Origin: Hutsoniella sourekii ATCC 700629 | GTDB taxonomy: Bacteria > Bacillota > Bacilli > Lactobacillales > Aerococcaceae | DNA length: 64,000 nucleotides | Assembly (NCBI RefSeq): GCF_000518205.1 | Contig: NZ_JADD01000011.1 | Coordinates: 1 to 64,000 of the forward strand | Direction of reading: 5' to 3' | Shown: positions 1 to 51,660 of the stretch, in pieces | How the letters are laid out: each line of letters begins with the position of its first letter | Numbering within the stretch: position 1 is the stretch's first letter | Translations under genes and position numbers: made by a program | The notes under the pieces: model-generated | Database searches by the model: none | What the model saw: only the letters and a program-made list of their open reading frames with translations | Told to the model about the DNA's origin: nothing

Positions 1-217
1 GGTGCTTAGGACGACGACCTTTTGAAGCCTTCTTTTTATTCGCATGTTTTTGCGCTGATCTAGCTTGATAGGCTTCTGAGTGACAACGATTCAGCTCTCG
101 ATAAATCGTTGAGCGATGGCAGCCAATAATATCAGCTATTCGGCTAACTTTATAGCCTTCTTTATGCAGGACTTCTATTTTTAATCGTTCTTCTATGGTA
201 AGATGTTTGTAGCTCAT
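1..217 (-). CDS. IS30-family transposase, N-terminal fragment (runs off left edge)
   Basis: The minus-strand reading starts at ATG 217-215, preceded by a GGAGG ribosome site, and stays open to the window edge (72 codons visible). It begins MSYKHLTIEERLKIEVLHKE and continues through a helix-turn-helix (GYKVSRIADIIGCHRSTIYREL) typical of the DNA-binding N-terminus of IS30-family transposases. The catalytic DDE core would lie further left and is not visible. The protein would cut and join IS ends. Function is read from family resemblance. Its insertion is what separates hsdS from its 5' end. Confidence 0.8.
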   Translation of the reverse strand, partial: MSYKHLTIEERLKIEVLHKEGYKVSRIADIIGCHRSTIYRELNRCHSEAYQARSAQKHANKKKASKGRRPKH

Positions 218-268
218 AACAGGCCTCCGTGTTCATGTTGGTGTGGTAACTTACATTTTACACGAACC
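1..268 (-). mobile_element. IS30-family insertion sequence, partial (cut by window edge)
   Basis: Contains the 5' part of an IS30-type transposase gene reading leftward. Its outer end lies near 250-270, where sequence resembling an IS terminal repeat (ttcgtgtaaaatgtaag on the minus strand) meets hsdS coding sequence. The exact boundary and target duplication cannot be fixed because the other end lies outside the window. CATAACAGG at 215-223 and CCTGTTATG at 267-275 form an inverted repeat that could fold over the transposase start and shield it from outside transcripts (inference). Confidence 0.7.
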
Positions 269-272
269 TGTT

Positions 273-1196
273 ATGGGTTTTTATTATTTGTCGCAATTAA
301 TTTTACAATCTATCATGTATAAAATGAATTGTGATCAAATTTTAGATTTAGTATCAAGCAATGTATCGGGAACTACACATCAAAGAATTAGTAGAAAAAA
401 TTTAGAAAAATTAGAATTAACTGTCCCTTTGTTAAAGGAACAAAAAGCTATTGCCGACACACTATCAACATTTGACGAACACATCGAAAATCTTGAAAAA
501 CTAATCGAAAAGAAAAAGATGATTCGTGATGGGGCAGTAGAAGACTTGATGAGTGGTAAGACAAGATTGGACGGTTTTGATGGGGATTGGATAGAGTTAA
601 GCTTTAAAGATTATTTTACTAAATTAAGAAATAATACTTTATCCCGTGATAAATTATCAAGTTCTGGTAAAGTCTCGAATATTCACTACGGAGATGTACT
701 AATAAAATATGGGCCTGTCTTAGATAGCGTAGAGGATGTACCTAAAGTAAAGGGAAATATTAAAATAGATTCATTATCTGTACTAAAAATTAATGATGTA
801 ATAATAGCTGACACTGCCGAGGATAATACTGTAGGGAAAGCAGTTCAAATTGGAGATATTCATAAACAAATTGTTTCAGGGCTACATACAATACCGTGCA
901 GACCTAATTATCCAACTGCTCCAAGATTTTTAGGATACTATATCAATTCTGATGTTTTTCATGATCAATTATTGCCATATATTACTGGCATAAAGGTATC
1001 TTCAATTTCGAGAAAATCTATTGATAAAACTAAGCTGTATATCCCTAGTGATATTAAAGAGCAACGAGCCATCGCTTCTGTTTTATCATCAATGGACGAT
1101 GAAATAGACAATCTACAAAATGAAAAAGAAAAGCTTGAAAAAATTAAGCAGGGAGCAATGGATGATTTGTTGACGGGCAGAGTAAGACTAGTTTAG
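273..1196 (+). pseudogene. hsdS: Type I restriction specificity subunit HsdS, 5'-truncated by IS30
   Basis: About 307 codons remain of a protein normally near 400 residues. Visible order: end of the first target-recognition domain, the first conserved helical spacer (QRISRKNLEKLEL ... EQKAIADTLSTFDEHI), an entire second target-recognition domain, and the C-terminal helical repeat (EQRAIASVLSSMDDEIDNL ... GAMDDLLTGRVRLV). The N-terminal half of recognition domain 1 is missing where the IS begins. An in-frame ATG exists at 273 and an earlier in-frame start lies inside the IS, but neither has a convincing ribosome site. It is probably non-functional. Some truncated S subunits work as dimers, so residual activity cannot be excluded. 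The stop codon lies just before the hsdR ribosome site. Confidence 0.8.
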
Positions 1197-1206
1197 GAGG
1201 TGGATT

Positions 1207-4200
1207 ATGAGCGTTGATCGAGAAAAACAATTACAAGATAGAGTTCTAAAGATCTTGAGAGATGATTTAGATTACAGATATATCGGTAATCTTGAGGATT
1301 TAGAAAATAAGTCGATAAGAGAAAATGACTTAATAGCCACCCTCAAGAATAGAGGTTATTCTGATGACCTCATTAAGCAGGCACTAAATGAAGTTAGAAA
1401 TATCGCTTATAATCAAGTGTCAGGTCTTTATAGAAATAATCAGGCCTTTTATTCCCTACTTAGATATGGTGTTCAAGGTTTGAAAGATGAAAATAAAGAA
1501 CGTATCACTGTTCATTTAATTGATTGGGAAAACATTGAAAATAATGATTTCGCTGTCGCTCAGGAGGTTAGCTTACTTTGTTATGACAATAAGCGAAGAA
1601 AGCGCCCTGATGTAGTCATCTATGTGAATGGAATTGCTTTAGCTGTTTTTGAACTAAAACGATCCTCTGTAAGTATTGGTGAGGGGATACGTCAAACCCT
1701 AACCAATCAAAAGGAAGAGAATATTGAACGATTCTTTAATACTGTTCAATTTACTTTTGCTGGAAATGAATCAGAAGGTCTTAAATATGGCACAATCTGC
1801 ACCTCGGAAAAGTATTACCTTCAATGGAGAGAAGATGAGAATGCTAGCGATAAACTATCTAATGAAGTGAAGCAATTACAAGGTGAGAGAACAAATCGGT
1901 TGAAGAATGGTATCATCTCAATTTGTCAAAAAGAAAGATTTTTATCTCTAATCCATGACTTTGTTATTTTTGATGCGGGCGTCAAAAAGCTAACTCGCCA
2001 CAATCAATATTTTGCGACGATTGCAGCTAGAAGTTTTATTCGCCGAGATGAAGGTGGTATTATTTGGAATACCCAAGGATCTGGTAAATCTCTTATTATG
2101 GTTTGGCTAACTAAATGGATTATTGAGAACGTAGAGAACAGCCGTGTAGTAATCATTACAGACAGAGATGAGTTAGACGATCAAATTGAGGGACTTTTTT
2201 CTGATGTGGACATTAAGATTGCCAGAGCAAAGTCAGGCCAACACTTAAGAAATCTATTGAATACTTACGAGGAATCTATCATTTGTTCTCTAATTCATAA
2301 GTATGGGCATAACGCTGGGAAACAAGCTGATGTCGATCTATATGTCAAAGAACTTGAGAAAAGCTTAGGTAGTGATTTTGAGGCTAAGGGTAACATTGTA
2401 GCCTTTATTGATGAATGTCACCGAACAAATTCTGGAAAGCTCCATAAAGCAGTGCGAACTATTATGCCCGAAGCCACTATTATTGGTTTCACAGGGACTC
2501 CATTATTGAAGAAGGACAAACAAACAAGTCGAGAAGTTTTTGGGGAATACATCCATACTTATAAATTTGATGAAGGGGTAGAGGATGGTGTCGTTCTCGA
2601 TTTAAGATATGAAGCGCGTGATGTAGATCAAGCTTTAACTAATCAAGACAAAGTAGATTTATGGTTTGAATCAAAGACTAAGGGCTTAACAGATTACGCC
2701 AAGAACAAATTAAAATCTTCTTGGGCTTCATTAAATAAGCTTTACTCATCTAGACAAAGATTAGAAAAGATTGTTGCAGATATTATCTTTGATATGGAAA
2801 CAAAGCCAAGACTTTCGTGTGACCGTGGAACGGCTATGCTAGTAGCTGGTGATATTCTTCAAGCTTGCAAGTACTGGGAGATTTTTCAAAGTTCTGGTTT
2901 CAAAAGATGTGCCGTGGTAACTTCATTTGAACCCAATGCGGCTAGTGTAAGAACAGCAACTTCAGATTTGAATGAAGAAAGCGAAAACGAGTATAAAAAA
3001 TCAATTTACGAGCGAATGCTTGATGGTAAGAGTACCGCGGAATATGAAAGCGAAGTAAAGAAAAAATTCAAAGAAGAACCTGCAAACATGAAGCTACTCA
3101 TTGTGGTTGATAAACTTTTAACAGGCTTTGATGCCCCAAGCGCCACTTATCTTTATATAGACAAATCAATGCAAGATCACGATTTATTCCAAGCAATCTG
3201 TCGAGTTAATCGTCCTGATGGAGATGATAAAGATTATGGATATATTGTTGACTATAAAGATCTGTTTAAAAATGTCCAATTAGCGATAACTAATTATACA
3301 GGTGGGGCATTTGAAGGGTACGATGATGAAGATGTGGAAGGTTTGATAAAAGGTCGGTATGAGGAAGCTAAAGCAGAAATGGTAGGAGCACGAGCGTCTT
3401 TAGATGACTTGTTTGGTAACATAGATGATAAATCGGTTGATTCTCAAGTTGTTGACTATTTTTGTGGGGACACCGAAGATGATGAGACCTATGTTGGACG
3501 TAGAGAAAGCTTTTATTCTTTATGCGCTTCATTTACTCGGTCATTCGCAAGTTGTTGTGAAAAATTAGTCAGTGATTATGGTTATAGTGAAAATGAAGTT
3601 AATCAAATACGACGAGAAATTTCAAATTATAATAAGACAAAAGAAATGGTGAAATTAGCAAGTTGTGATTACATTGATTTGAAGCCTTATGAGTCTGATA
3701 TGAGATATATCTTAGATACCTATATTAGGGCAGAGGATTCTACTGTTATTAGTGCGTTGGAAAACATGTCACTTGTAGAATTATTATTAAATAGTCAAAC
3801 TACAACTCCAATTGAACAAATCATAGATGGTCTCTCTGGGGATGATGCCGCTAAAGCAGAAATAATTGATAACAATGTGACTCATGAAATTGTAAAGCGA
3901 CGATCATCTAACGAGGTTTATTACGGAAAACTATCAGAAATGCTTGAAAATGTCATTACCTTACGAAAAATTGGTGTCATGAGCTATGAGGAATATTTAA
4001 AAGAAGTAGTTGAACTTGCTAAATCGGTTGTTCGACCTGAAGATAGTGGGAATTATCCCGATGATATTAAAGACAGTGAAGCCAAGCGAGCACTTTATGA
4101 TTTTTTTGGAGATGAAGATTCGTCACTAACGTATTCGCTTGATACCTCCATTCGAAGTGCAATGCAACCAGATTGGTTAAACAATCGGCAGAAACAAAGA

Positions 4201-4323
4201 AGAATTCAATCTGTCATATATGAAGATTTATGTAAATATGGATACGACAAAGATAAATCAGATGATTTAACGGAGGAAATTTTCGAACTTGTAAAAAGGC
4301 AGGGAGAATATCGTGAAATATAA
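1207..4323 (+). CDS. hsdR: Type I restriction endonuclease subunit R
   Basis: A 1038-residue motor/nuclease subunit that translocates and cleaves DNA in complex with HsdM and HsdS. Seen in order: an N-terminal PD-ExK-like nuclease region (RPDVVIYVNG ... AVFELKR, about residues 134-155), Walker A (NTQGSGKS, near 289), the DEAD-type box DECHR (near 402), motif III-like GFTGTP (near 428) and the second helicase domain (VVDKLLTGFDAP). A strong AGGAGGTGG ribosome site precedes ATG 1207. Length is normal and no frame break is seen. hsdM is not in the window and presumably lies beyond the IS. With HsdS damaged, the system may be inactive or may rely on another S subunit. Confidence 0.95.
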   Translation: MSVDREKQLQDRVLKILRDDLDYRYIGNLEDLENKSIRENDLIATLKNRGYSDDLIKQALNEVRNIAYNQVSGLYRNNQAFYSLLRYGVQGLKDENKERITVHLIDWENIENNDFAVAQEVSLLCYDNKRRKRPDVVIYVNGIALAVFELKRSSVSIGEGIRQTLTNQKEENIERFFNTVQFTFAGNESEGLKYGTICTSEKYYLQWREDENASDKLSNEVKQLQGERTNRLKNGIISICQKERFLSLIHDFVIFDAGVKKLTRHNQYFATIAARSFIRRDEGGIIWNTQGSGKSLIMVWLTKWIIENVENSRVVIITDRDELDDQIEGLFSDVDIKIARAKSGQHLRNLLNTYEESIICSLIHKYGHNAGKQADVDLYVKELEKSLGSDFEAKGNIVAFIDECHRTNSGKLHKAVRTIMPEATIIGFTGTPLLKKDKQTSREVFGEYIHTYKFDEGVEDGVVLDLRYEARDVDQALTNQDKVDLWFESKTKGLTDYAKNKLKSSWASLNKLYSSRQRLEKIVADIIFDMETKPRLSCDRGTAMLVAGDILQACKYWEIFQSSGFKRCAVVTSFEPNAASVRTATSDLNEESENEYKKSIYERMLDGKSTAEYESEVKKKFKEEPANMKLLIVVDKLLTGFDAPSATYLYIDKSMQDHDLFQAICRVNRPDGDDKDYGYIVDYKDLFKNVQLAITNYTGGAFEGYDDEDVEGLIKGRYEEAKAEMVGARASLDDLFGNIDDKSVDSQVVDYFCGDTEDDETYVGRRESFYSLCASFTRSFASCCEKLVSDYGYSENEVNQIRREISNYNKTKEMVKLASCDYIDLKPYESDMRYILDTYIRAEDSTVISALENMSLVELLLNSQTTTPIEQIIDGLSGDDAAKAEIIDNNVTHEIVKRRSSNEVYYGKLSEMLENVITLRKIGVMSYEEYLKEVVELAKSVVRPEDSGNYPDDIKDSEAKRALYDFFGDEDSSLTYSLDTSIRSAMQPDWLNNRQKQRRIQSVIYEDLCKYGYDKDKSDDLTEEIFELVKRQGEYREI

Positions 4324-5053
4324 TCAAACAATCGGTGGTATAGATATAGAAATTATTAAAAAGACTAATTTGAAAAACCTTTATATTAGAGTCTTGCCAC
4401 CAGATGGACAGATTATAGTTAGCGCTCCAACAAACTGTCCAGGTGAGGAAATAAGAAACATCGTACTGAAGCGAATTCCTGATCTTAATAAAGCCATTGC
4501 AAAATTTAAAAATCAGCCAAGACAGAGTAAAAGAGAATACGTCTCTGGTGAATCCCATTATTTGTGGGGTAAGCCGTATCGGCTAGAAGTAATCTATGAT
4601 GGTAAAAAGTCGGAGATTCAAAAGACTCCTAATAAAATTATTCTGAGAGTTCCGCACGATGCTGACTTAGCTAAAAGAGAATACATTTTAACAGAATGGT
4701 ATCGACAAGAGTTGAAAAGGGTTCTAGTAAGTGTTACAAAAAAATGCGAAAAAAACACGGGTCTTAAAGCTAATGAATATCGAGTCAAGAACATGAAGAC
4801 AAAATGGGGGACATGTAACATTGATAAAAAAAGAATTTGGCTCAATTTGCAGCTTGTAAAAAAACCTATGGAATGTTTGGAATATGTTTTGACGCATGAG
4901 CTAGTTCATTTGCTGGAGAAAAACCATACCCATAGGTTTCATGCTCTAGTAGAGAAATATTATCCTACATGGAAAGAGGCAAAGAAACTTTTAGAAGAGA
5001 TGCCTCTAGACCATATGGAAAAGGATGAACTTAATGAAGAAGACGCGAAGTGA
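4313..5053 (+). CDS. YgjP-like (DUF45) zinc metallopeptidase
   Basis: A 246-residue protein starting at GTG 4313 with an AGGGAGA site, overlapping the end of hsdR by 11 bases, which suggests coupled translation. The C-terminal half carries NMKTKWGTCN followed by HELVH (residue 195 onward) and then a later H (NHTHRFHALVEKYYP), the signature of the YgjP/DUF45 family of WLM/SprT-related metallopeptidases. Such genes often sit beside type I restriction genes. The substrate is unknown. Base composition matches hsdR, so it belongs to the same imported block. Exact function is not inferable; a regulatory or maturation protease for the restriction system is speculation. Confidence 0.85.
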   Translation: MKYNQTIGGIDIEIIKKTNLKNLYIRVLPPDGQIIVSAPTNCPGEEIRNIVLKRIPDLNKAIAKFKNQPRQSKREYVSGESHYLWGKPYRLEVIYDGKKSEIQKTPNKIILRVPHDADLAKREYILTEWYRQELKRVLVSVTKKCEKNTGLKANEYRVKNMKTKWGTCNIDKKRIWLNLQLVKKPMECLEYVLTHELVHLLEKNHTHRFHALVEKYYPTWKEAKKLLEEMPLDHMEKDELNEEDAK

Positions 5054-6599
5054 TGTTTATGACATCAACAGGAAGACAGGAGCCTTGATAATCGGGAAAA
5101 ATAGATTAGATGATTATGCAACAAAGATCCTTAATAAATACTGTCCAGCAGCTTTAAGCGCCCCTATGGCATTACCCGTCAATAAAATTATTGAACGCAT
5201 GGGACTTAATTTAGAGCATCATAATTTATCCGAGAATCATGATGTTCTAGGGTGCTGCACTTTATTGGAAGGCAATGTTCCTATTTATCAAAGTAAAACA
5301 AAAAGATACGAAGAAAAGTATTTTGATCAAGGAACTATAATTATTGAATCATCTTTATCTAAACCTGAAAATATCGGAAGATATAGAAACACATTAATTC
5401 ATGAATTGATTCATTGGGAAAAGGACAAGAAGTATTTTGAAATTCTGAGATTACGTCATCCAGAGTTAATGGAAGATCTGTATCCATTAATGCAAAGACA
5501 ATCCAAATTTCATTTTGAACCTGCGCAAAATAAACAAACTGATGATAATCAAATTATGTGGTTAGAATGGCAAGCACATCGAATTGCCCCACGAATTTTA
5601 ATGCCAAAGAATACCTTTAAAAGTAAGGCAGAAGAAATACTAAAAAAAGAAAAATCGTGCGATGATTTGATTCAGAAGTTGAGTGATTTTTTTGTTGTAT
5701 CACGTAGTTCAACAAAGTATCGGCTTTTGGAAGTTGGACTAGAATCTAAAATGGGTCATTTTGATGATTATGAAGATGTATTTGCACCAATTAATAATAG
5801 GACAGATTATGTAAAAATTTCTTTGAGTGAGGCATACTCTCTTCTAGAATCCAATGAATCTCTATCAGATTGGATTAATACTGGAAGATATATGTTTGTA
5901 GATGGCTATTTTGTGATAGCAAATACTCAATATGTTCAATTTAAAAATGGTAGATTTACAATAACGAAAAAAGCTCTGAAAAATATAAAGCAATGTGCCT
6001 TAAATATTTCAGAAATTAATACAACTGAGTACAAAAACTTATCTAATGATTTTTATGGTATTTCTTTCCTATATCGTTGTCATGGTGTCTCAAATCAAAT
6101 TTTGATTTATCACCCTGAATTTCAAGTAGACCTTAAAGATGAAGATAAAGCTTATGGATCAGCAGCTGACATGCTCAATTCCTTATACAATCAAAAAGAT
6201 GAAATAGAATTGGTAAGAATGATAGACGACCCAGAAATAACGATATGTGATTGTTTGTTGTATCTTTTTGAAAAAAGATCGTGGGACAATAAAGATATTT
6301 TTAATGATGAAACGGAGCTTGATACTAATTACTTTTATAAAATAAGAAAAAACAATATGAATAATATATCAGAAAAAAATTTAATTGCTATTTGTGTTGG
6401 ATTAAAGCTAACACTTCATATTACTGAAAAGCTTCTTGAAAAAAGTGGTGTAGTTGTTAAAAATATAAGGTACCAATCCCCGTTTAATACCTATTTCAAT
6501 ATAATGGAAAGGTTTCCTGGATTACCGCTTAGCGATTTTAATAGTCTTTTAGAAGAGTTGGAAGTGGAACCGCTCGGTACAAAAAGAATTAATGAATAA
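5034..6599 (+). CDS. Large ImmA/IrrE-family metallopeptidase with C-terminal HTH-like segment
   Basis: About 521 residues. ATG 5034 is preferred because AAAAGGA lies about 10 bases upstream; an in-frame ATG at 5025 abuts that site. The gene overlaps the previous one by about 20 bases. The zinc motif HELIHWEKD (residues 123-131) and the downstream WLEWQAHRIAPRILMP segment are typical of ImmA/IrrE domains, which in mobile elements and phages cleave repressors or act in stress signalling. The C-terminus (YKIRKNNMNNISEKNLIAI, then VGLKLTLHITEKLLEKSG) resembles the XRE-like module seen in large members of this family. The middle is unassigned. It is AT-rich like hsdR. The target is unknown. Confidence 0.8.
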   Translation: MKKTRSDVYDINRKTGALIIGKNRLDDYATKILNKYCPAALSAPMALPVNKIIERMGLNLEHHNLSENHDVLGCCTLLEGNVPIYQSKTKRYEEKYFDQGTIIIESSLSKPENIGRYRNTLIHELIHWEKDKKYFEILRLRHPELMEDLYPLMQRQSKFHFEPAQNKQTDDNQIMWLEWQAHRIAPRILMPKNTFKSKAEEILKKEKSCDDLIQKLSDFFVVSRSSTKYRLLEVGLESKMGHFDDYEDVFAPINNRTDYVKISLSEAYSLLESNESLSDWINTGRYMFVDGYFVIANTQYVQFKNGRFTITKKALKNIKQCALNISEINTTEYKNLSNDFYGISFLYRCHGVSNQILIYHPEFQVDLKDEDKAYGSAADMLNSLYNQKDEIELVRMIDDPEITICDCLLYLFEKRSWDNKDIFNDETELDTNYFYKIRKNNMNNISEKNLIAICVGLKLTLHITEKLLEKSGVVVKNIRYQSPFNTYFNIMERFPGLPLSDFNSLLEELEVEPLGTKRINE

Positions 6600-6634
6600 A
6601 TGTAATATAACTGTAACATTTCATTGAGATGTTG

Positions 6635-6663
6635 AGAGTCCCAGATAGGGGCTCTTTTTTGTA
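6635..6663 (+). terminator. Rho-independent terminator after the hsdR-ImmA block
   Basis: AGAGTCCC pairs with GGGGCTCT across a short loop, followed by a T run. It lies 36 bases after the metallopeptidase stop codon and closes the island transcript. Confidence 0.85.
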
Positions 6664-6780
6664 TTTATTTTTTATTAAGACTTGCTAAATAAGGAACTTT
6701 TAACATCTTACTGAGTTGTACATGCTTTTTTTATATATCGCATAATGTATTTAGAAAAATGAAAAGCGAGGTGAAAAAAG

Positions 6781-6921
6781 TTGACCAGATGTAATAGTAA
6801 GCAGACATCTCGAAAGATTGCACGCAAAGCGTCAAAAATTTTACGAGACAAGCGCTACAGCAAGATTTCCAAGTCAATCGCAGGTTCCGCATTAGCCCAG
6901 ACTAAACGTAAACGCAAATAA
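6781..6921 (+). CDS. Small highly basic conserved-looking protein (46 aa)
   Basis: The start is TTG 6781, with AGGTG about 7 bases upstream; the stop is TAA 6921. The product is rich in Lys, Arg and Ser: it begins MTRCNSKQTSRKIARKASKI, continues through LRDKRYSKISKSIAGSALAQ and ends in a basic tail. From memory, similar short proteins (KASKVLRD..SK..KS.AGSALSQ) recur in mobile or phage-derived regions of Firmicutes with unknown function. The charge suggests binding to nucleic acid, but that is inference. It is directly followed by the structured-RNA candidate at 6981-7131. Confidence 0.6.
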   Translation: MTRCNSKQTSRKIARKASKILRDKRYSKISKSIAGSALAQTKRKRK

Positions 6922-6980
6922 TTTAATGGCTTTAGAAGGTGAGCCGTAATCATCTTCAAATTAAAATTCAATATAGCCCT

Positions 6981-7131
6981 AGTGATCATAAGGCGTGAGG
7001 ATACATATTCGATACCATCAGTCGTAAGACTGGTGTGCATTGAGTAGAAGGTAGCCTTTCCTTATGATGCACTTAAATGGGTGAACTGTAGGTCTGGATA
7101 CTTCTATCTTCGGAAGGGTCCAGACCTTTTT
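6981..7131 (+). ncRNA. Candidate structured RNA ending in an intrinsic terminator
   Basis: The strand AGTGATCATAAGG (6981-6993) pairs almost perfectly with CCTTATGATGCACT (7060-7073), leaving one bulged base. It encloses a hairpin CAGTC-GTAA-GACTG capped by a GNRA-type tetraloop. A terminator (GGTCTGGA 7091-7098 with TCCAGACC 7119-7126, then TTTTT) follows 18 bases later. A closing stem, an internal hairpin and a terminator look like a riboswitch or small RNA, but I could not match it to a known family. No long ORF covers it. Confidence 0.5.
7091..7131 (+). terminator. Intrinsic terminator of the structured-RNA candidate
   Basis: An eight-base GGTCTGGA / TCCAGACC stem with an inner CTTC/GAAG extension, followed by five T. 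Confidence 0.8.
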
Positions 7132-7177
7132 GCTGTTCTCACGCCTTGGTATCACAGGCATCAAAGGAGTTATAACA

Positions 7178-7369
7178 GTGAGAATTATTATTAAATCAGA
7201 ACCAAATAGCCGAAGCAGTTATACAGATCAAGAAGTTTACGATGTAACAGTCGAAGAAGTCGCCATCCACACACGCGAGGGTGATCCCTCCAATTTTCTT
7301 TTGTTACTTACTTATTGCACACTTGAAATTAATCCCTTATCAACCGCTTCACTCTTGCTATGTCGCTAG
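7178..7369 (+). CDS. Short hypothetical ORF, probably degenerate 3' end
   Basis: GTG 7178 has a good AAAGGAG site 8 bases upstream and gives a 63-residue product beginning MRIIIKSEPNSRSSYTDQEV. The first 39 residues look like a hydrophilic protein. The rest (FLLLLTYCTLEINPLS...) reads as AT-rich junk, suggesting that the original frame was lost around 7290. I do not recognise the family. It lies in a zone of mobile-element remnants. Confidence 0.35.
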   Translation: MRIIIKSEPNSRSSYTDQEVYDVTVEEVAIHTREGDPSNFLLLLTYCTLEINPLSTASLLLCR

Positions 7370-7448
7370 GCTTTCTGGTATTGATAATTACCTTTCCACT
7401 TCTTAATGAAATAGGCCGGGTTAAAATTTTTAGTGTTTTCTTATTTGA

Positions 7449-7495
7449 TTGATTCATGTCATTATATGCGTATAATATAAGTATTGAAAGGAGAG
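7449..7495 (+). promoter_or_regulatory. Promoter and ribosome site of the hicAB module
   Basis: TTGATT (7449-7454), 16-base spacer, TATAAT (7471-7476), then AAAGGAGAG at 7487-7495 upstream of the hicA start codon at 7509. Confidence 0.6.
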
Positions 7496-7508
7496 AGCTA
7501 ATATACCT

Positions 7509-7675
7509 ATGACCCCAAAGCAAATGGTTAAACTGTTGAAGAAAAACGGTTTTAATAAGGTTGGTCAAAATGGTAGTCCGCTAAAATTTATAACCCCGAA
7601 ACCAACATAACTACTAAATCTCCTTTGCATAACAAAGATTTAAGAAAGGGGCTTGAAGCTAAGACTTTAAAGTGA
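7509..7675 (+). pseudogene. hicA: HicA-type mRNA interferase toxin, frameshifted
   Basis: ATG 7509 opens with MTPKQMVKLLKKNGFNKVGQ, a typical HicA start, but the frame stops at 7610. The rest of the protein continues in the next frame from about 7592 (NPETNITTKSPLHNKDLRKG) and ends at TGA 7675, so one indel near 7588-7592 breaks the gene. In addition the GSH motif, whose histidine is catalytic in this dsRBD-like RNase family, reads GSP here. The toxin is therefore doubly inactivated. The intact antitoxin gene lies 67 bases downstream. Confidence 0.85.
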
Positions 7676-7742
7676 GTTGGTCTGAAATAAACTTCTTACT
7701 TACTATTCTATCTCTCCGTAGCAAATGAAAGGAATGATTTCA

Positions 7743-8120
7743 ATGATAGTTTATCCGGCAATAATTGATCAAGATGGGAACTACTTCTCTGTATTTTTTC
7801 CAGATGTAGATGGCGCACTCACTCAAGGAGAAACGCTTGAAGAAGCGTATGAGATGGCTGGTGAAGCCTTAGGAACTATTCTTGAGGATTACACTAATTA
7901 TCCAGAAGCAACAGCCTACGATGTATTAATCAAAGAATATCCCAATAGTATTGTTACTTTAGTTGGTTTTGATCACATCGCTTTCAAAAAGAAATACCAA
8001 TCAAAAACTGTTCGTAAAAACGTGACAATTCCAGAATGGTTAAATGATTTAGCAACATCTAATAATATTAACTTTTCTCAAACCTTAACAGAAGCACTTG
8101 AAGCAAAACTTGGCGTCTAG
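7743..8120 (+). CDS. hicB: HicB-family antitoxin
   Basis: A 125-residue protein from ATG 7743, which has AAAGGA 9 bases upstream; an in-frame ATG at 7725 has no such site. The N-terminal partial RNase H-like fold shows YPAIIDQDGNYFSVFFPDVD and GETLEEAYEMAGEALG, the HicB hallmark. The C-terminus (NVTIPEWLNDLATSNNINFSQTLTEAL) looks like the ribbon-helix-helix DNA-binding module that autoregulates hicAB. It should bind and neutralise HicA and repress the promoter at 7449-7476. With hicA broken next to it, it is either an orphan regulator, an anti-toxin against related toxins, or a gene in decay. Confidence 0.9.
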   Translation: MIVYPAIIDQDGNYFSVFFPDVDGALTQGETLEEAYEMAGEALGTILEDYTNYPEATAYDVLIKEYPNSIVTLVGFDHIAFKKKYQSKTVRKNVTIPEWLNDLATSNNINFSQTLTEALEAKLGV

Positions 8121-8135
8121 TTTGGGAAGAATTAA

Positions 8136-10814: not shown

Positions 10815-12152
10815 ATGACGACTTACAGCCAACGTGTCTATCAGACCTTAAAGGACAAGTACCCTGAACAAGAAGATTTCCTAGGAGCGGTGGAGGAATT
10901 CTTCCAAGCCATCCAACCGGTCTTAGAGGCTCATCCTGAATATGAAGACTTGGCCATCTTGGAACGGATGGTGGAACCCGAGCGGATCTTTATCTTCCGC
11001 GTGCCTTGGTTGGATGATGAGGGCAAGGTGCAAGTCAATACCGGCTACCGGGTCCAATATTCGTCCTTGAATGGGCCTTATAAGGGCGGAATCCGCTTCC
11101 ACCCAACAGTCAACTTAAGTATTATGAAGGCCTTGGCTTTTGAGCAGACCTTCAAGAACTCCTTGACCACCTTACCGATTGGAGGTGGCAAGGGGGGTGC
11201 TGACTTTGATCCCAAGGGCAAGTCGGACCAAGAAGTGATGAAGTTTACCCAGAGCTTTGTCACTGAGTTACAGAAATACATCGGCCAAGACCAAGACGTT
11301 CCTGCTGGAGATATTGGTGTGGGTGGCCGTGAGATTGGTTATATGATGGGTCAATACCGGCGCTTGAATGATGCAGCAGGTGGCGTCTTCACAGGTAAGC
11401 CAGTCCTAGCAGGAGGTAGTCTGGGCCGGACTCAAGCGACCGGTCACGGGGTGGTCTACTTCTTGAACCATGTCCTGGAAGCTGCTGGAGACTCCTTGGC
11501 TGGTAAGCGGGTCATGATCTCTGGTGCGGGTAATGTGGCCTATTATGCTGCTGAGCTGGTGGAAGAGCTAGGAGGTATTGTTGTTAGCCTCAGTGATTCA
11601 ACTTCTGCCGTTTACCAGCCTGATGGCTTAGACTTGAATATTGTTAAAGAGTTGAAGATTGAAGGTCGAGAACGGATCAGTCGCTATCTTGAAGAAGATC
11701 CCGAGGCCAAGAACTTTGAAGGGTCACTCTGGGACCAAGACATTCAAGCCGATATCGCCTTGCCATGTGCAACCCAAGGGGAGATTAATGGCGACCAAGC
11801 TCAGCGACTAGTAGATAATGGTGTCCGCTATGTGGTGGAAGGCGCTAACCTGCCTTGTAACAAGGAGGCCCAAGCTGTCTTCAAGGAGGCCGGCGTTCAA
11901 CGGGCTCCGGCTAAGGCTTCCAATGCCGGTGGGGTCGCAGTCTCAGCCCTTGAGATGGCGCAGAATTCCATGCGTCTAGCTTGGAATGCCGACCGAGTAG
12001 AAGAGAAACTGCAGGCGATTATGCAATCTATCTTTGACCAATGTCTGGAGGCGTGTAAGAAATATGATCTGGACCAAGACTATGTGGCCGGTGCAGATAT
12101 TGCTTCCTTTGAGAATATTGCTGAATTAATGAAATTACAAGGCGTGATCTAA
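10815..12152 (+). CDS. gdhA: NADP-type glutamate dehydrogenase
   Basis: A 445-residue cytoplasmic enzyme that interconverts 2-oxoglutarate plus ammonia and glutamate. The glutamate-binding segment GGIRFHPTVNLSIMKALAFE and the catalytic PIGGGKGGADFDPKGKSD motif are present, as is the dinucleotide fold (ISGAGNVAYYAAELV) and the late ALEMAQNS segment. The length matches hexameric bacterial GdhA, and the biosynthetic, NADPH-dependent class is inferred from that length and sequence style. AGGAGGAG precedes ATG 10815. The gene is monocistronic, with its own promoter and terminator. Confidence 0.95.
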   Translation: MTTYSQRVYQTLKDKYPEQEDFLGAVEEFFQAIQPVLEAHPEYEDLAILERMVEPERIFIFRVPWLDDEGKVQVNTGYRVQYSSLNGPYKGGIRFHPTVNLSIMKALAFEQTFKNSLTTLPIGGGKGGADFDPKGKSDQEVMKFTQSFVTELQKYIGQDQDVPAGDIGVGGREIGYMMGQYRRLNDAAGGVFTGKPVLAGGSLGRTQATGHGVVYFLNHVLEAAGDSLAGKRVMISGAGNVAYYAAELVEELGGIVVSLSDSTSAVYQPDGLDLNIVKELKIEGRERISRYLEEDPEAKNFEGSLWDQDIQADIALPCATQGEINGDQAQRLVDNGVRYVVEGANLPCNKEAQAVFKEAGVQRAPAKASNAGGVAVSALEMAQNSMRLAWNADRVEEKLQAIMQSIFDQCLEACKKYDLDQDYVAGADIASFENIAELMKLQGVI

Positions 12153-35255: not shown

Positions 35256-36205
<950 letters not shown>

Positions 36206-36218
36206 TAGGAGGTAAGGA

Positions 36219-36728
36219 ATGGAAATACTAGGACAAACTGCTCTTGGTCAATTCTTAATGACCCTTATCGCTTTTGGATTAGTGATCTTCCTTGTCTACA
36301 AGTACGGTTGGCAACCGATTACTCAAATGCTTGAGGAACGTAAAGAAACGATTACACGTGACTTAAAAGAAGCTCAAATGAGTAAAGACGAAGTAGCTGC
36401 CAGCGTGAATCAAGCCCACGAAGGCTTAGTTCAAGCCCGCAAGGAAGCGCAAGATATTATTGATGCCGCCACCAAAACGGCCAACAATAAAGCCCAATTA
36501 ATTGAAGAAGAGGCCCGCCAACGAGCAGAAGAATTAGAAGCAAGCACGCGTGTCGCCCTAGAACAAGAAAGGGCTCAAATGCAAAGTGAAATGGAAGAAA
36601 GCGTCTTAAGCTTATCCATTGCTATGGCTGAGAAGATTCTAAGACGAGAATTAAGTCAAGCCGACCAAGAAGAATACGTGGCTCATTTTATCAGCCAACT
36701 GCAAAGTGAAGTGAATCCTCATGACTAA
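36219..36728 (+). CDS. atpF: F1Fo ATP synthase subunit b
   Basis: A 169-residue peripheral-stalk protein. One N-terminal membrane helix (GQFLMTLIAFGLVIFLVYKY) is followed by a long charged coiled coil rich in Glu, Ala and Gln. Its length and C-terminus are normal, with no fused delta domain. It overlaps the next gene by 8 bases. This matters because atpH is truncated. Confidence 0.96.
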   Translation: MEILGQTALGQFLMTLIAFGLVIFLVYKYGWQPITQMLEERKETITRDLKEAQMSKDEVAASVNQAHEGLVQARKEAQDIIDAATKTANNKAQLIEEEARQRAEELEASTRVALEQERAQMQSEMEESVLSLSIAMAEKILRRELSQADQEEYVAHFISQLQSEVNPHD

Positions 36729-37002
36729 TTTGAATTTAACCTTACTTGAAGATAAGATGTCACGTCGCGCTCCCAAAAAAGATACATTAACGATTACGAG
36801 TGCTCAGGAATTAACCGATCAAGAAAAGCAAGAAATCATCGATATCTTTGCTGATAAGATTCACCGTGATTTCAAAGAAGTGATCTATATTGTGGATCCA
36901 GACTTAATTGCTGGGGTTCACGTGCAATCAACGGCCTATTCCTACGAATGGTCCGCCCAGAAATTATTAAGAGACTTAGCACGCTCTCTGATTAAGAAAT
37001 AG
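36721..37002 (+). CDS. atpH: ATP synthase delta subunit lacking its N-terminal domain
   Basis: Only 93 residues against about 175-180 for normal AtpH. What is present matches the C-terminal part of delta: [20 protein letters not shown] and [20 protein letters not shown], corresponding to the conserved terminal segment that contacts subunit b. The six-helix N-terminal domain, which in other bacteria binds the alpha N-termini at the top of F1, is absent. No intergenic sequence could encode it, because ATG 36721 overlaps atpF and the downstream atpA follows 11 bases later. No stop or frameshift marks a recent accident. Confidence 0.85.
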
Positions 37003-37013
37003 GAGGTAATCAA

Positions 37014-38522
37014 ATGAGTATTGAATCGATCAAGCAAACCTTGCTCCAAGAGATTGCCGCCTTCCAACCTGAAGAGACAATCGAAGCGGTCGGGACAATT
37101 ACTTCCATTGGAGACGGGATCGCTCAAGTTAGCGGTCTAGACAAGGTAAAATACGGCGAGATGGTCCAATTTGCTAACGGTACCATCGGTATGGTTCAAA
37201 ACCTGAATGAAGGTAGCGTCGGGATCATTATCTTTGGTGAATATTCTGATATTCATGAAGGACATATGGTTCGCCGCCTAAACCGGATGATGGAAGTACC
37301 TGTCGGAGACAACTTCCTAGGACGGGTCGTCAACCCACTCGGAGAGCCGATTGATGGCTTAGGTACTATTGAAGCTACAGGCTACCGACCAGTAGAGACT
37401 GAAGCGCCCGGCATTATGGACCGTCAAAGTGTAGACCAACCGCTACAGACAGGCATTAAAGCCCTAGATGCTCTAGTACCTATTGGACGCGGTCAACGGG
37501 AATTGATCATTGGAGACCGTAAGACTGGTAAGACGACTGTCGCAGTGGATGCGATTATCAACCAGAAGGATTCAGATGTCCTTTGTATCTATGTCTCAAT
37601 CGGTCAAAAGGCTTCGACGGTTAAGAATATCGTCTCTACCTTACAAAAGCATGACGCGATGGACTATACCATTGTGATGTCAGCGACAGCTTCACAAGCG
37701 ACCTCGCTCCAATATTTGGCTCCTTATGCAGCCACAGCAATGGCCGAAGAGTTTATGTACAATGGCAAGCATGTTCTAATTGTCTATGACGACCTCTCCA
37801 AACAAGCGGTCGCTTACCGTGAACTGAGCTTGCTACTTAAACGACCACCTGGACGGGAAGCTTATCCAGGGGATATCTTCTACTTGCACTCACGTTTACT
37901 TGAACGTTCAGCTAAGTTGAATGATGCCCTAGGAGGTGGGTCAATTACGGCCTTACCGATCATCGAAACCCAAGGTGGGGATATCTCTGCTTATATTCCA
38001 ACCAACGTTATCTCAATTACCGATGGTCAGATCTTCCTAGAAAGCGACCTCTTCCTAGCTGGTGTGCGCCCAGCGATTAATGCTGGACTTTCCGTATCCC
38101 GGGTAGGTGGATCGGCACAATTACCAGCCATGAAGAAGGTATCCGGTACCTTGCGGATTGACCTAGCCAGCTACCGTGAATTGGAAGCCTTTAGTCAATT
38201 TGGTTCCGACTTAGACGAGATGACACGTGCCAGTCTAGCTCACGGGGAAAAGACGGTCGAAATCTTGAAGCAACGTGCACATGAATTGATCCCAGCTTCC
38301 AAGCAAATCATTCTTTTCTATGCCTTGGTTAATCAATATTTGAAGCCAGTGGAAGCCAGCAAGGTCAGAGACTTTGAACATGAGTTATACGAGTACTTGG
38401 ACCGCTACCATGCGGACTTATTAAGAGAAATCGAAACCAAAGGTAAGATTGAAGATTATCAAGTGGTTGATCAATTATTAGAAGCCTTCAGCTCTGACTT
38501 TTTGAATGTTTCTGCTGATTAG
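37014..38522 (+). CDS. atpA: F1Fo ATP synthase subunit alpha
   Basis: A 502-residue catalytic-hexamer subunit with non-catalytic nucleotide sites. The P-loop is [11 protein letters not shown], and the ATP synthase alpha/beta signature [17 protein letters not shown] is present. The N-terminus ([20 protein letters not shown]) is of standard type even though its usual partner domain in delta is missing. Confidence 0.98.
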
Positions 38523-38535
38523 TTAGGAGGGAATT

Positions 38536-39450
38536 ATGGAATCATTGATTCAAATCAAGCGTAAGATTGACTCTGTCGCTAAGACAGCGCAAATCACCAA
38601 CGCCATGAAATTGGTTTCCACCTCCAAATACAATAAGATGGTTGAAGAAGCAAAGCATTATGACCAATATGCAGGCCAAGTGCGACAAATGATGACTCAA
38701 ATGGTTCAAGCACCTATGTACGAGTTACCAGAGAACTTATGGATTGTGGAGGGGCAAAGTGAACAATTCGACTACCGCGACCTCCTGGAAAGGTCCAAAG
38801 ACCGGAAGATCGGTTATTTGATCATCTCTTCTGACAAGGGATTGGCTGGTAACTATAATTCCAATCTCTTGAAGTCGGTTGAGGCCTTCTTTGACAAGCA
38901 CCATGCCAGCAAAGAAGACATCAAGGTCTTTGCGATTGGTCAGCCGGTGGTTAAGTTTTGTCACAGCCAGCAAATTGAAGTGGTTCACCAACAACATTAT
39001 TTACCAGATTATCCGACCTATACCCAAGTGCAGCGGATCATTGAGCGAGCTATAACCCTATACACAGAAGGAGTCTATGATGCCTTGTATATTTGCTATC
39101 AACACTCGGTTAATGTCTTGCAAAGTGAGATTCGGATCGAACCCTTCTTGCCACTCAACCACCTCTTACAAAAAGACCAACCAAAGGTATCCTCAGTGGA
39201 CTATGTCACTGAACCAGGCAACCAAGTTGTCATCAACGAACTCTTACGCCAATATGCTGAGAGTCAGATTTATGGGGCAATTATAGACGCCAAGACAGCT
39301 GAACAAGCCAGCCGGATGCAAGCCATGTCGCAAGCAACCGATAATGCAGAGGATATTATTTCTAGTTTGAAACTTCAATACAACAAAGCTCGTCAAGTTA
39401 GTGTCACCAATGAAATGTTGGATATTATTAACGGATCGAGTGTTCAATAA
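38536..39450 (+). CDS. atpG: F1Fo ATP synthase subunit gamma
   Basis: A 304-residue central rotor shaft. The N-terminal helix (IKRKIDSVAKTAQITNAMKL) and C-terminal helix (ASRMQAMSQATDNAEDIISS) form the coiled coil. It is slightly longer than the usual 285-290, with the extra residues in the globular part. GGAGG precedes ATG 38536. Confidence 0.97.
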   Translation: MESLIQIKRKIDSVAKTAQITNAMKLVSTSKYNKMVEEAKHYDQYAGQVRQMMTQMVQAPMYELPENLWIVEGQSEQFDYRDLLERSKDRKIGYLIISSDKGLAGNYNSNLLKSVEAFFDKHHASKEDIKVFAIGQPVVKFCHSQQIEVVHQQHYLPDYPTYTQVQRIIERAITLYTEGVYDALYICYQHSVNVLQSEIRIEPFLPLNHLLQKDQPKVSSVDYVTEPGNQVVINELLRQYAESQIYGAIIDAKTAEQASRMQAMSQATDNAEDIISSLKLQYNKARQVSVTNEMLDIINGSSVQ

Positions 39451-39473: not shown

Positions 39474-40943
<1,470 letters not shown>

Positions 40944-40951
40944 GTGATCAG

Positions 40952-41380
40952 ATGACACAGAGACAAACAGTCCGAATCTCATCACCGGAAGGAATCATCT
41001 ACCAACAAGAAGCCTATAGTGTGAATGCCCAGACCATTGACACCGGGGTAACCATCTTGCCTCACCACGTCCCTTATATGACCGTTGTCAGCCGAGGAAT
41101 CGTGGAAGTCAAGGACAGCCTAGAAGCTAGCGAGAGCGACTATATCGCCCTCAGTGGTGGTATTCTGGAAGTCAACAACAACCAGACATCCATTGTCTGC
41201 AACTACGCTATTCACGCCAAAAGTCCTGAGGAAGGCAAGCTACTCCTGGACAAGCAAGAAGCCGAAGTAGAAGCTGCCCAAGCCCTCAGCCGTGACGATA
41301 CGGTTGCCTACCAACGAGCCCAAGTCAATATCAAGCGGGCCTTGAACCAGTTGGACGCTGGGCAGACTAAGGGATTTTAA
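40952..41380 (+). CDS. atpC: F1Fo ATP synthase subunit epsilon
   Basis: A 142-residue rotor and regulatory subunit. The N-terminal beta-sandwich (ISSPEGIIYQQEAYSV ... TGVTILPHHVPYM) is followed by a C-terminal helical hairpin (AEVEAAQALSRDDTVAYQRA). Last gene of the operon, with a terminator about 50 bases downstream. Confidence 0.95.
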   Translation: MTQRQTVRISSPEGIIYQQEAYSVNAQTIDTGVTILPHHVPYMTVVSRGIVEVKDSLEASESDYIALSGGILEVNNNQTSIVCNYAIHAKSPEEGKLLLDKQEAEVEAAQALSRDDTVAYQRAQVNIKRALNQLDAGQTKGF

Positions 41381-41480: not shown

Positions 41481-41520
41481 CATTTTGATCTTTAATCACT
41501 GTGCTAAGGGCGTTCTATCA

Positions 41521-41831
41521 CCCTTGAAAATAATTTGAAGTGCGATGGGCCCTCTCAATTGCCCCTGAAATAAATTTGAAGTGCGATAGGGGTGTTCTAT
41601 TACCCTTGAAATAAATTTGGGGTGTAATCGGGGCGTTCTATCGCCCTTGAAACAAATTTGAAGTGCGATAGGGTTGTCCCATTCCCCTTGAAAAGAATTT
41701 GAAGTGTAATAGGAGCGCTCTATTCCCCTTGAAATGAATTTGGAGTGCAATAGACCTGCCCCATTTCCCTTGAAAAATTTTGAGTGTGATAGAAGTACGC
41801 CATCCCTTTTGAAATAAATTTCAAAGTGAAT
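41521..41831 (+). repeat. 41-bp tandem repeat array 1 (8 units)
   Basis: Units begin at 41521, 41562, 41603, 41644, 41685, 41726 and 41767 (exact 41-base period) and a shorter last one near 41804. The conserved part reads cccttgaaataaatttgaag then tgcgat, followed by about 15 less conserved bases. The last unit is palindromic (ttgaaataaatttcaa). It is immediately followed by a decayed nnrD fragment. There is no coding potential on the plus strand. Confidence 0.9.
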
Positions 41832-41894
41832 AGAAGGGTCACTAGCCACCTTCAGGAGATCGGCCCCAGAATTGAGGCACCCTTTGGCAGCTAA
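41832..41894 (-). pseudogene. Decayed fragment of nnrD next to array 1
   Basis: 41839-41894 aligns without gaps to 52322-52377 inside nnrD at about 80 percent identity by eye. Translated on the minus strand it gives LAAKGCLNSGADLLKVASD, against LAAKGSLYSGAGLLTVASD in the intact protein. Only this internal piece survives; it directly abuts the last array unit. Confidence 0.8.
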
Positions 41895-41993
41895 TAAGAC
41901 TTACTTGAATCTTTTTGTGTTTATAGGATTGTTTAGTCCACTAGACCAGCTCCACCTAGGTGGTTGGTGTAGGAGAACTAGGCATTGCTATTA

Positions 41994-42011
41994 TGTACAA
42001 GATATTGTACA
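41994..42011. promoter_or_regulatory. YefM-YoeB operator
   Basis: Two TGTACA hexamers at 41994-41999 and 42006-42011, centres 12 bases apart, within the dyad TGTACAA-GATA-TTGTACA. The same core and spacing are known for the E. coli yefM-yoeB operator. It lies 20 bases before the antitoxin start codon. Confidence 0.85.
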
Positions 42012-42031
42012 ATATTAGTGAGGTGATCAAG

Positions 42032-42277
42032 ATGGAGACAACCAATTATAGTGATTTTAGACAAAACTTAAAGACTTATATGGATCAAATTAATGAGCAT
42101 TCCTTGGAATATACAGTGACTAGTCAAAATGGTAATGATGTCGTTGTCTTAGCTAAAAAGGACTTTGATTCTTTAATGGAAACTCACTACTTATTATCGA
42201 GTAAAGCCAATCGAGAGAATTTATGGGCTGCCATGGAGGAACTTGATCAAGGTGATTTTATTGATGAGGACTTGTAA
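42032..42277 (+). CDS. yefM: YefM-type antitoxin (Phd/YefM family)
   Basis: An 81-residue antitoxin that should bind YoeB and autorepress the operon. ATG 42032 has AGGTG 7 bases upstream. The N-terminal DNA-binding domain (NYSDFRQNLKTYMDQINEHS ... VVVLAKKDFDSLMETHYLL) is followed by the acidic toxin-wrapping tail (AAMEELDQGDFIDEDL). The stop codon overlaps the toxin start, ensuring coupling. Confidence 0.93.
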   Translation: METTNYSDFRQNLKTYMDQINEHSLEYTVTSQNGNDVVVLAKKDFDSLMETHYLLSSKANRENLWAAMEELDQGDFIDEDL

Positions 42278-42534
42278 TGAAAGTCAGATGGAGTAAAAGG
42301 GCTTATAAAGAGAAAGAAATTTGGCGGAATAAAGATAAGAAAATTTACCAAAAAATCATTCAATTACTTGAAAACATCAAGGACACGCCCTATTCAGGTC
42401 TAGGCAAACCGGAACTCTTAAGGTATGAGCTCAGTGGCTTCTGGTCGAGACGAATCACGATTGAACACCGATTGGTCTATCGGGTGGTGGAAGGTCGGAT
42501 TGAAGTGTTGTCATGTATGTATCACTATGATTAG
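42277..42534 (+). CDS. yoeB: YoeB-type ribosome-dependent mRNA interferase toxin
   Basis: An 85-residue RelE-fold toxin that cleaves mRNA in the ribosomal A site. The catalytic residues known from E. coli YoeB fall at the same positions: Glu46 in GLGKPELL, Arg65 in EHRLVY, and His83-Tyr84 near the C-terminus. The family signature WSRRI is present. The gene appears intact. A degenerate second copy of its 3' part lies 220 bases downstream. Confidence 0.95.
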   Translation: MKVRWSKRAYKEKEIWRNKDKKIYQKIIQLLENIKDTPYSGLGKPELLRYELSGFWSRRITIEHRLVYRVVEGRIEVLSCMYHYD

Positions 42535-43797: not shown

Positions 43798-44400
43798 TGC
43801 CACGAAAAAAGTTGGAGTGTGATAGTCTCGTTCCATTGCCCATGAAATGAATTGGGAGTGTGATGGTCCCGCGCCATTGCCCTTGAAATAAATTTGGAGT
43901 GTGATGAGCTCGCGCCATTGCCTTCGAAATAAATTTGAAGTGTGATGAGCCCGCGCCATTGCCCTTGAAAAAACTTTGGAGTGGGATAGCCCTAGCCCAT
44001 TGCCCTTGAAAAAACTTTGGAGTGGGATAGGCCCGCTCAATCGCCCTTGAAAATTAATTTGGGATGCGATTGTACCAGGCCATTGCCCTCGAAATAAATT
44101 TAGAGTGTGATGGTCCCGCGCCATTGCCCTTGAAAATTAATTTTGAGTGCGATGAGCCCGCGCTATTGCCCTTGAAATAGATTTGAAGTACGATTGGACC
44201 ATCCTATTGCCCTCGAAATAAATTTGGGGTGTGATTGCACCAGCCCATTGCCCTTGAAATAGATTTGAAGGGCGATAGAAGCACCCAATCACCCTCGAAA
44301 TAAATTTGGATTGCGATTGGATCGTTCCATTGCCCTTGAAATAAATTTGAAGTGCGATAGAAGCACTCAATCACCCTTGAAATAAATTTGAAGAACAATA
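43798..44400 (+). repeat. 41-bp tandem repeat array 2 (about 15 units)
   Basis: Units start near 43799 and at 43839, 43880, 43921, 43962, 44003, 44044, 44086, 44127, 44169, 44210, 44251, 44292, 44333 and 44374. The period is 41 with two 42-base units. Same orientation and core as array 1, but more diverged between units. It starts right after the adh terminator and ends beside an nnrD-promoter-like remnant. Leftward ORFs that appear here are a by-product of the repeat. Confidence 0.9.
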
Positions 44401-50928: not shown

Positions 50929-51660
50929 CCCTTGAAATAAATTTGAAATGCGATGGGGGTCGCACTATCGCCCTTGAAATATATTTGGAGTGTGATGGGG
51001 TTGTCCTATTGCCTTTGAAAAATAAATTGGAGTGTGATGGGGTCATTCTATTGCCCTTGAAACAAATTTGAAGTGCGATGGGGTCGTTCTATTCCCCTTG
51101 AAAATAATTTGGAGTGTGATGGGGTCATTCTATTGCCCTTGAAACAAATTTGAAGTGCGATGGGGTCGTTCTATTCCCCTTGAAAATAAATTGGAGTGTG
51201 ATGGGGTCATTCTATTACCTTTGAAAATAAATTGAAGTGCGATGGGGTCGTTCTATTACCCTTGAAAATAATTTGAAGTGCGATGGGGTCGTTCTATTCC
51301 CCTTGAAAATAATTTGGAGTGTGATGGGTCCGCTCTATTCCCCTTGAAAATAAATTGGAGTGTGATAGGGTTGCGCCATTCCCCTTGAAAATAAATTGAA
51401 GTGTGATGGGGTCATCCTATTCCCCTTGAAAATAAATTGAAGTGCGATGGGGTCGTTCTATTCCCCTTGAAAATAATTTGGAGTGTGATGGGTCCGCTCT
51501 ATTCCTCTTGAAAATAAATTGGAGTGTGATAGGGTTGCTCTATCGCCTTTGAAAATAAATTGGAGTGTGATGGGGTCATCCTATTGCCCTTGAAACAAGT
51601 TTGAAGTGTGATAGTCGCCTTCATTTCCCCTCGAAATTTATTTCAAGGGGAATGGGGACA
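50929..51660 (+). repeat. 41-bp tandem repeat array 3 (18 units), adjacent to nnrD
   Basis: Units start at 50929, 50971, 51012, 51054 and then every 41 bases to 51628. It is the longest and most homogeneous array. Higher-order structure is visible: units 9-12 (51259-51422) are nearly repeated as units 13-16 (51423-51586), and units 4-5 as 6-7. The last unit is a palindrome (cccctcgaaatttatttcaa then gggg), as in array 1. It ends 15 bases from the nnrD stop codon. Confidence 0.93.

Follow-up and report, generated by a model that had tools for sequence, protein, structure and literature searches.

A stand-alone ATP synthase delta subunit without its N-terminal domain in Hutsoniella sourekii and a clade of its relatives

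In the textbook F-ATPase, the N-terminal domain (NTD) of the delta subunit is required to hold the stator on F1. The Bacillus PS3 enzyme places this domain on the threefold axis, where the three alpha N-termini are unequal: one touches the C-terminal region of delta and two touch the NTD (PMC12229609). In 2025 an engineered PS3 enzyme was described in which the NTD (residues 2–104) was deleted and the delta C-terminal domain (CTD) was fused to alpha; the enzyme is active, shows canonical docking of the b2 dimer, carries one to three peripheral stalks and has an H+/ATP ratio of 5.8 versus 3.0, about double (PMC12229609). The same study names the delta NTD as the element that sets the stalk number to one, and its authors chose a fusion because they feared that an unfused piece would not hold (PMC12229609).

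Here we describe an operon that encodes such an unfused piece. It lies within the first 64,000 nucleotides of contig NZ_JADD01000011.1 of H. sourekii ATCC 700629 (hereafter the window), in a genome of 2.07 Mb and 48 contigs that is 99.6% complete. To our knowledge, an unfused, NTD-less delta has never been put to the test.

The atp operon and its short delta subunit

The atp operon is read from the forward strand and is composed of atpB (35256–35975; a subunit), atpE (35993–36205; c), atpF (36219–36728; b), atpH (36721–37002; delta), atpA (37014–38522; alpha), atpG (38536–39450; gamma), atpD (39480–40943; beta) and atpC (40952–41380; epsilon). The original prediction held that all subunits other than delta look normal and that b carries no fused delta, and both points stand: a, c, b, alpha, gamma and epsilon match their own families (Pfam, NCBIfam), beta was read from the open reading frame (ORF) list only, and b is the product of a separate gene with an ordinary length of 169 residues. 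The motifs of the motor are legible, including the arginine motif LALRLFGN of a, GLIEAIP of c, the P-loop GGAGVGKT of beta and SRVGGSAQ of alpha. The alpha subunit is of the ordinary F-type, scoring 779 bits against TIGR00962 (cut-off 484) and 628 bits, under the cut-off of 750.5, against the N-ATPase-type model TIGR03324. Its N-terminal helix of 16 residues is kept.

The atpH gene occupies the usual slot between the b and alpha genes and encodes 93 residues, of which residues 16–90 (36766–36990) match positions 98–172 of the 172-position Pfam OSCP profile PF00213 (E = 7e-9, 36.4 bits, cut-off 22.3). The same region is homologous to the CTD of Bacillus PS3 delta (PDB 6n2y_I, residues 112–177, E = 1e-6), and the structure matches of AtpH include PDB 9jc1_I, a delta–alpha–alpha chain that fits the PS3 fusion as described in PMC12229609. 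The NCBIfam delta models match the C-terminal part only and stay under their cut-offs (TIGR01145, 36.5 bits vs 57.5). In place of an NTD of about 105 residues there is a tail of 20 residues (36721–36780), and AtpH scores -1.7 bits against a family-specific NTD profile; the N-terminal six-helix domain is absent, and the subunit is thus the C-terminal segment that had been predicted. A single-sequence AlphaFold model of AtpH alone is poor (pLDDT 61).

The boundaries of the gene leave no room for a concealed domain. The ATG start lies within the last codons of atpF, with an overlap of 8 nt with the atpF stop, and the stop-to-stop frame consists of 95 codons, two of which precede the ATG, so that a longer delta cannot start there; a hidden upstream start, which the original prediction had ruled out from the gene spacing, is excluded. 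At the other end, atpH terminates at 37002, 11 nt 5' of the alpha start at 37014, and the two genes are in different frames, so that the delta CTD is not fused to alpha.

The window has other features. A 41-bp tandem repeat forms three arrays between genes, at 41507–41834, 43803–44390 and 50929–51612 (about 7, 14 and 17 copies); its core is CCTTGAAAWWAATTTGRAGTG, which is also found on contigs C12 and C13 of H. sourekii (57 forward and 5 reverse matches, with 0 for a reversed control). Directly behind the atp operon, at 41960–42534, an ORF pair resembles by eye a Phd/YefM–YoeB toxin–antitoxin. Positions 1–7000 have a GC content down to 34%, compared with 43–50% later, and hold ORFs that resemble, again by eye, HsdS and HsdR of type I restriction and an SprT-like protease; this segment was probably acquired.

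Distribution of the NTD-less delta and selection on it

We compared delta, b and alpha across 76 genomes of the window's family (Lactobacillales, probably Aerococcaceae), 58 of which have an F-type alpha, using the upstream region that was fetched for most of them. An NTD-less delta is encoded in about half of the family genomes with an F-ATPase operon (30/58), a count that includes near-copies and a few genomes (e.g., G002) taken from near-identical matches and not fetched singly. Of these genomes, 28 fall in a single clade that spans 15 genera; all deltas read from it are NTD-less, and two genomes filed under another family (G156 and G234) join it. The remaining two (G052 and G053) are two species of a single genus whose other members have a full-length delta. 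The NTD profile separates the two types of subunit: all 22 full-length relatives, each scored against a version built without its own genus, reach at least 10.5 bits, and the NTD-less tails reach at most 6.9 bits. The closest relatives of the window in the alpha tree (g18, g15, g17 and g64) all lack the domain, and a full-length AtpH is therefore not what the nearest relatives have. Order-wide, among 395 genomes, the deltas listed outside the window's family and one further family (f6) all match PF00213 with E values of at most 4e-24. A search for papers on delta in Aerococcaceae gave none in the literature collection used.

In a tree of alpha from which the N-terminal 25 residues were removed, a single branch (91/78) sets 27 NTD-less rows apart, and the same branch is recovered with the whole of alpha (98/93). 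G052 and G053 lie elsewhere in this tree, and their forced union with the main NTD-less clade is rejected (AU p = 0.0028); the NTD has therefore been lost at least two times in the family, the loss in these two species being, on the evidence of the tree, independent of that in the main clade. We conclude that the loss is ancient and not the result of an error or a new mutation.

Between close NTD-less pairs, dN/dS of the CTD is 0.02–0.18, compared with 0.04–0.24 between full-length pairs and with 0.01–0.08 for alpha, and by this measure the CTD is under strong purifying selection. This selection and the absence of the NTD from the whole clade bear out the view that the short gene reflects stable evolution. 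The CTD of the clade has a signature of its own in the alignment (Q in column 52, YY in columns 57–58, E instead of D in column 59 and G in column 62). The amphipathic helix at the alpha N-terminus is kept in all 23 aligned NTD-less rows, with changed side chains. The b subunit is of similar length in both groups (164–169 residues with NTD-less and 163–168 with full-length delta), so no domain has been shifted into b, and we found no extension of note that would compensate for the NTD.

Attachment of the stalk without an NTD

We posit, with a probability of roughly two in three, that AtpH is a functional, naturally NTD-less and unfused delta whose CTD caps b2 and docks on the alpha N-terminal helix. 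By analogy with PS3, the most likely arrangement is a direct one, in which the CTD would still cap the b2 dimer and, together with b2, would dock straight onto the N-terminal helix of one alpha. This contact would be one that ordinary F-ATPases already have beside their NTD contacts, and the NTD plug, which in other enzymes lies on the symmetry axis of the alpha3beta3 crown and holds the two remaining alpha N-termini, has simply been discarded. We infer that coupling is retained in such an enzyme. The original prediction had left two options, a domain supplied by another protein or a stalk that attaches differently; very probably the attachment differs, and the first option fares poorly, as discussed below.

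Absence of the NTD matters for how many stalks there are as well as for how a stalk is held, a consequence that the original prediction did not consider. Given that the NTD normally restricts the enzyme to one stalk, the NTD-less clade may attach its stalk differently or carry more than one. With the axis free of the NTD, each alpha N-terminus could hold its own delta CTD and b2, and the window and its clade would then encode natural, unfused multi-stalk ATP synthases with two or three copies of the peripheral stalk and of the a subunit, and with a proportionally larger number of protons per ATP. We regard this extension as tentative and, on balance, unlikely. A clade that has neither an NTD nor a delta–alpha fusion is nonetheless a natural experiment on two questions: whether coupling can do without the NTD, and whether multi-stalk motors with a raised H+/ATP ratio occur in nature.

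Next in plausibility, although doubtful, is that the tail of delta stands in for the NTD through a short amphipathic helix motif, present in one or two copies (e.g., YEDDLLRKI), that bundles with the alpha N-helices. The motif [YFHVE]E[DENQ]xLLxx[ILMVF] occurs in 14 of 27 tails from six genera, several of them with two copies, where shuffling of the tails gives 0.14 on average, but it was derived from the very tails counted. The alpha N-helices resemble the motif more closely in the NTD-less clade (mean 2.2 bits vs -5.1 bits with full-length delta), as in IKQTLLQEI of the window and LEKRLLKQI of G028; however, this difference is a single event on the tree. Nine genera have no motif, the window included (LTLLEDKM at most), and one tail consists of 13 residues and forms no helix. 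The motif is accordingly rejected as a general replacement of the NTD and could do no more than strengthen the grip in some members of the clade, where the tail and the alpha helices may, from their sequences, form a helix bundle at the crown.

It is improbable that the NTD, or a substitute for its role at the crown, comes from a very divergent or unrelated protein encoded at another locus. The alpha N-terminal helices are kept though their usual main partner is gone, and an all-helical domain may diverge past sequence detection. Nevertheless, PF00213 has no second match in the H. sourekii genome up to an E value of 10, and the sole match of the family NTD profile there is a MetQ-like lipoprotein (E = 0.01), within the reach of sequence profiles, which could overlook a detached and strongly diverged NTD. 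Weak N-terminal matches to the profile in two relatives (G026 and G027) proved to be amino-acid ABC binding proteins, and no additional conserved gene was seen in the atp operon.

Less probable still is that the F-ATPase is decaying or badly coupled, its NTD lost since the enzyme is minor beside a V/A-type ATPase. Subunit D of the V/A-type enzyme is encoded in 75 of the 76 family genomes, H. sourekii included, and in two genera (g3 and g10) no F-type alpha passed the threshold applied. The V/A-type enzyme is, however, just as common beside a full-length delta, which eliminates it as the cause of the loss; delta may have been freed of some constraint by a second rotary pump, but such a pump accompanies both types of delta alike. 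Further points against decay are that alpha and delta are under purifying selection, that the operon is complete and has its key motor motifs, and that the NTD-less form has persisted across 15 genera. Misassembly, misannotation and a deletion that arose recently in a single strain can all be dismissed, as the closest relatives are likewise NTD-less and the atpF and atpH genes share 8 nt.

Comparison with known delta and stator systems

Bacillus PS3 delta (6n2y_I) has a CTD homologous to AtpH and carries an NTD on the crown that AtpH does not have. The engineered PS3 delta–alpha protein is closer, since there too the NTD is gone and the CTD is kept, and the contacts with b2 and alpha are expected to be equal. 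It differs in that its CTD is fused to the alpha N-terminus, whereas in the window delta and alpha are distinct subunits read in different frames, and this NTD-less delta is natural and shared by a whole clade.

Natural delta–alpha fusions, proposed for Acidaminococcus fermentans and two further UniProt entries (PMC12229609), resemble the window in that the NTD is absent and the CTD is encoded in the atp operon. Our scan of 139 genomes of the phylum identified a delta CTD in frame with an alpha-sized protein in seven (G419, G463, G447, G480, G486, G512 and G521), with frames of 612–659 residues, and in the four whose loci were read (G419, G480, G512 and G521) the CTD is fused ahead of alpha. 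These fusions share one frame with alpha and belong to other families of the phylum, unlike the unfused delta of the window.

In L107, L109, L110 and L111, in atp operons of other families of the phylum, the delta CTD is fused ahead of alpha, and by the argument of PMC12229609 these would be predicted to be multi-stalk enzymes. Further loci have other arrangements. The atp operon of L108 (G443, 3165–4064) encodes a delta of about 290 residues, with one NTD and two tandem CTDs, from a gene flanked by those of b and alpha. Free-standing delta-CTD-like genes occur in tandem in L105 (G423, 7072–8123 and 11513–11926) and L106 (G505, 5590–6651); their products have about 110–130 residues and an N-terminal amphipathic helix (MEKWRxxxAxEY), and there is no atp gene nearby in the stretch read. 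In L106 these genes adjoin an 828-residue ORF that resembles SpoIIE by eye.

N-ATPases, which have no delta (PMC5706428), provide another NTD-free form: their b subunit (TIGR03321) is without the delta NTD, and its C-terminal part matches residues 21–88 of AtpH. Some family members have second operons of this type, with a b of about 251 residues that has a delta-CTD-like end. There the delta-CTD-like part is fused to b in a different type of operon, whereas b and delta of the window are separate genes. The EG peripheral stalk of A/V-type enzymes offers a likeness only, in that its head attaches to the crown with no six-helix plug at the centre (PMC5706428, PMC6131620 and general knowledge); it is built of other subunits than the stalk of the window. 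The occurrence of natural fusions and of N-ATPase-type b subunits indicates that NTD-free stators recur. NTD-less forms as such had already been proposed, as delta–alpha fusions and as the N-ATPase b, a precedent that the original prediction did not take into account; what is new is an NTD-less delta that is unfused, stands alone and extends across a clade.
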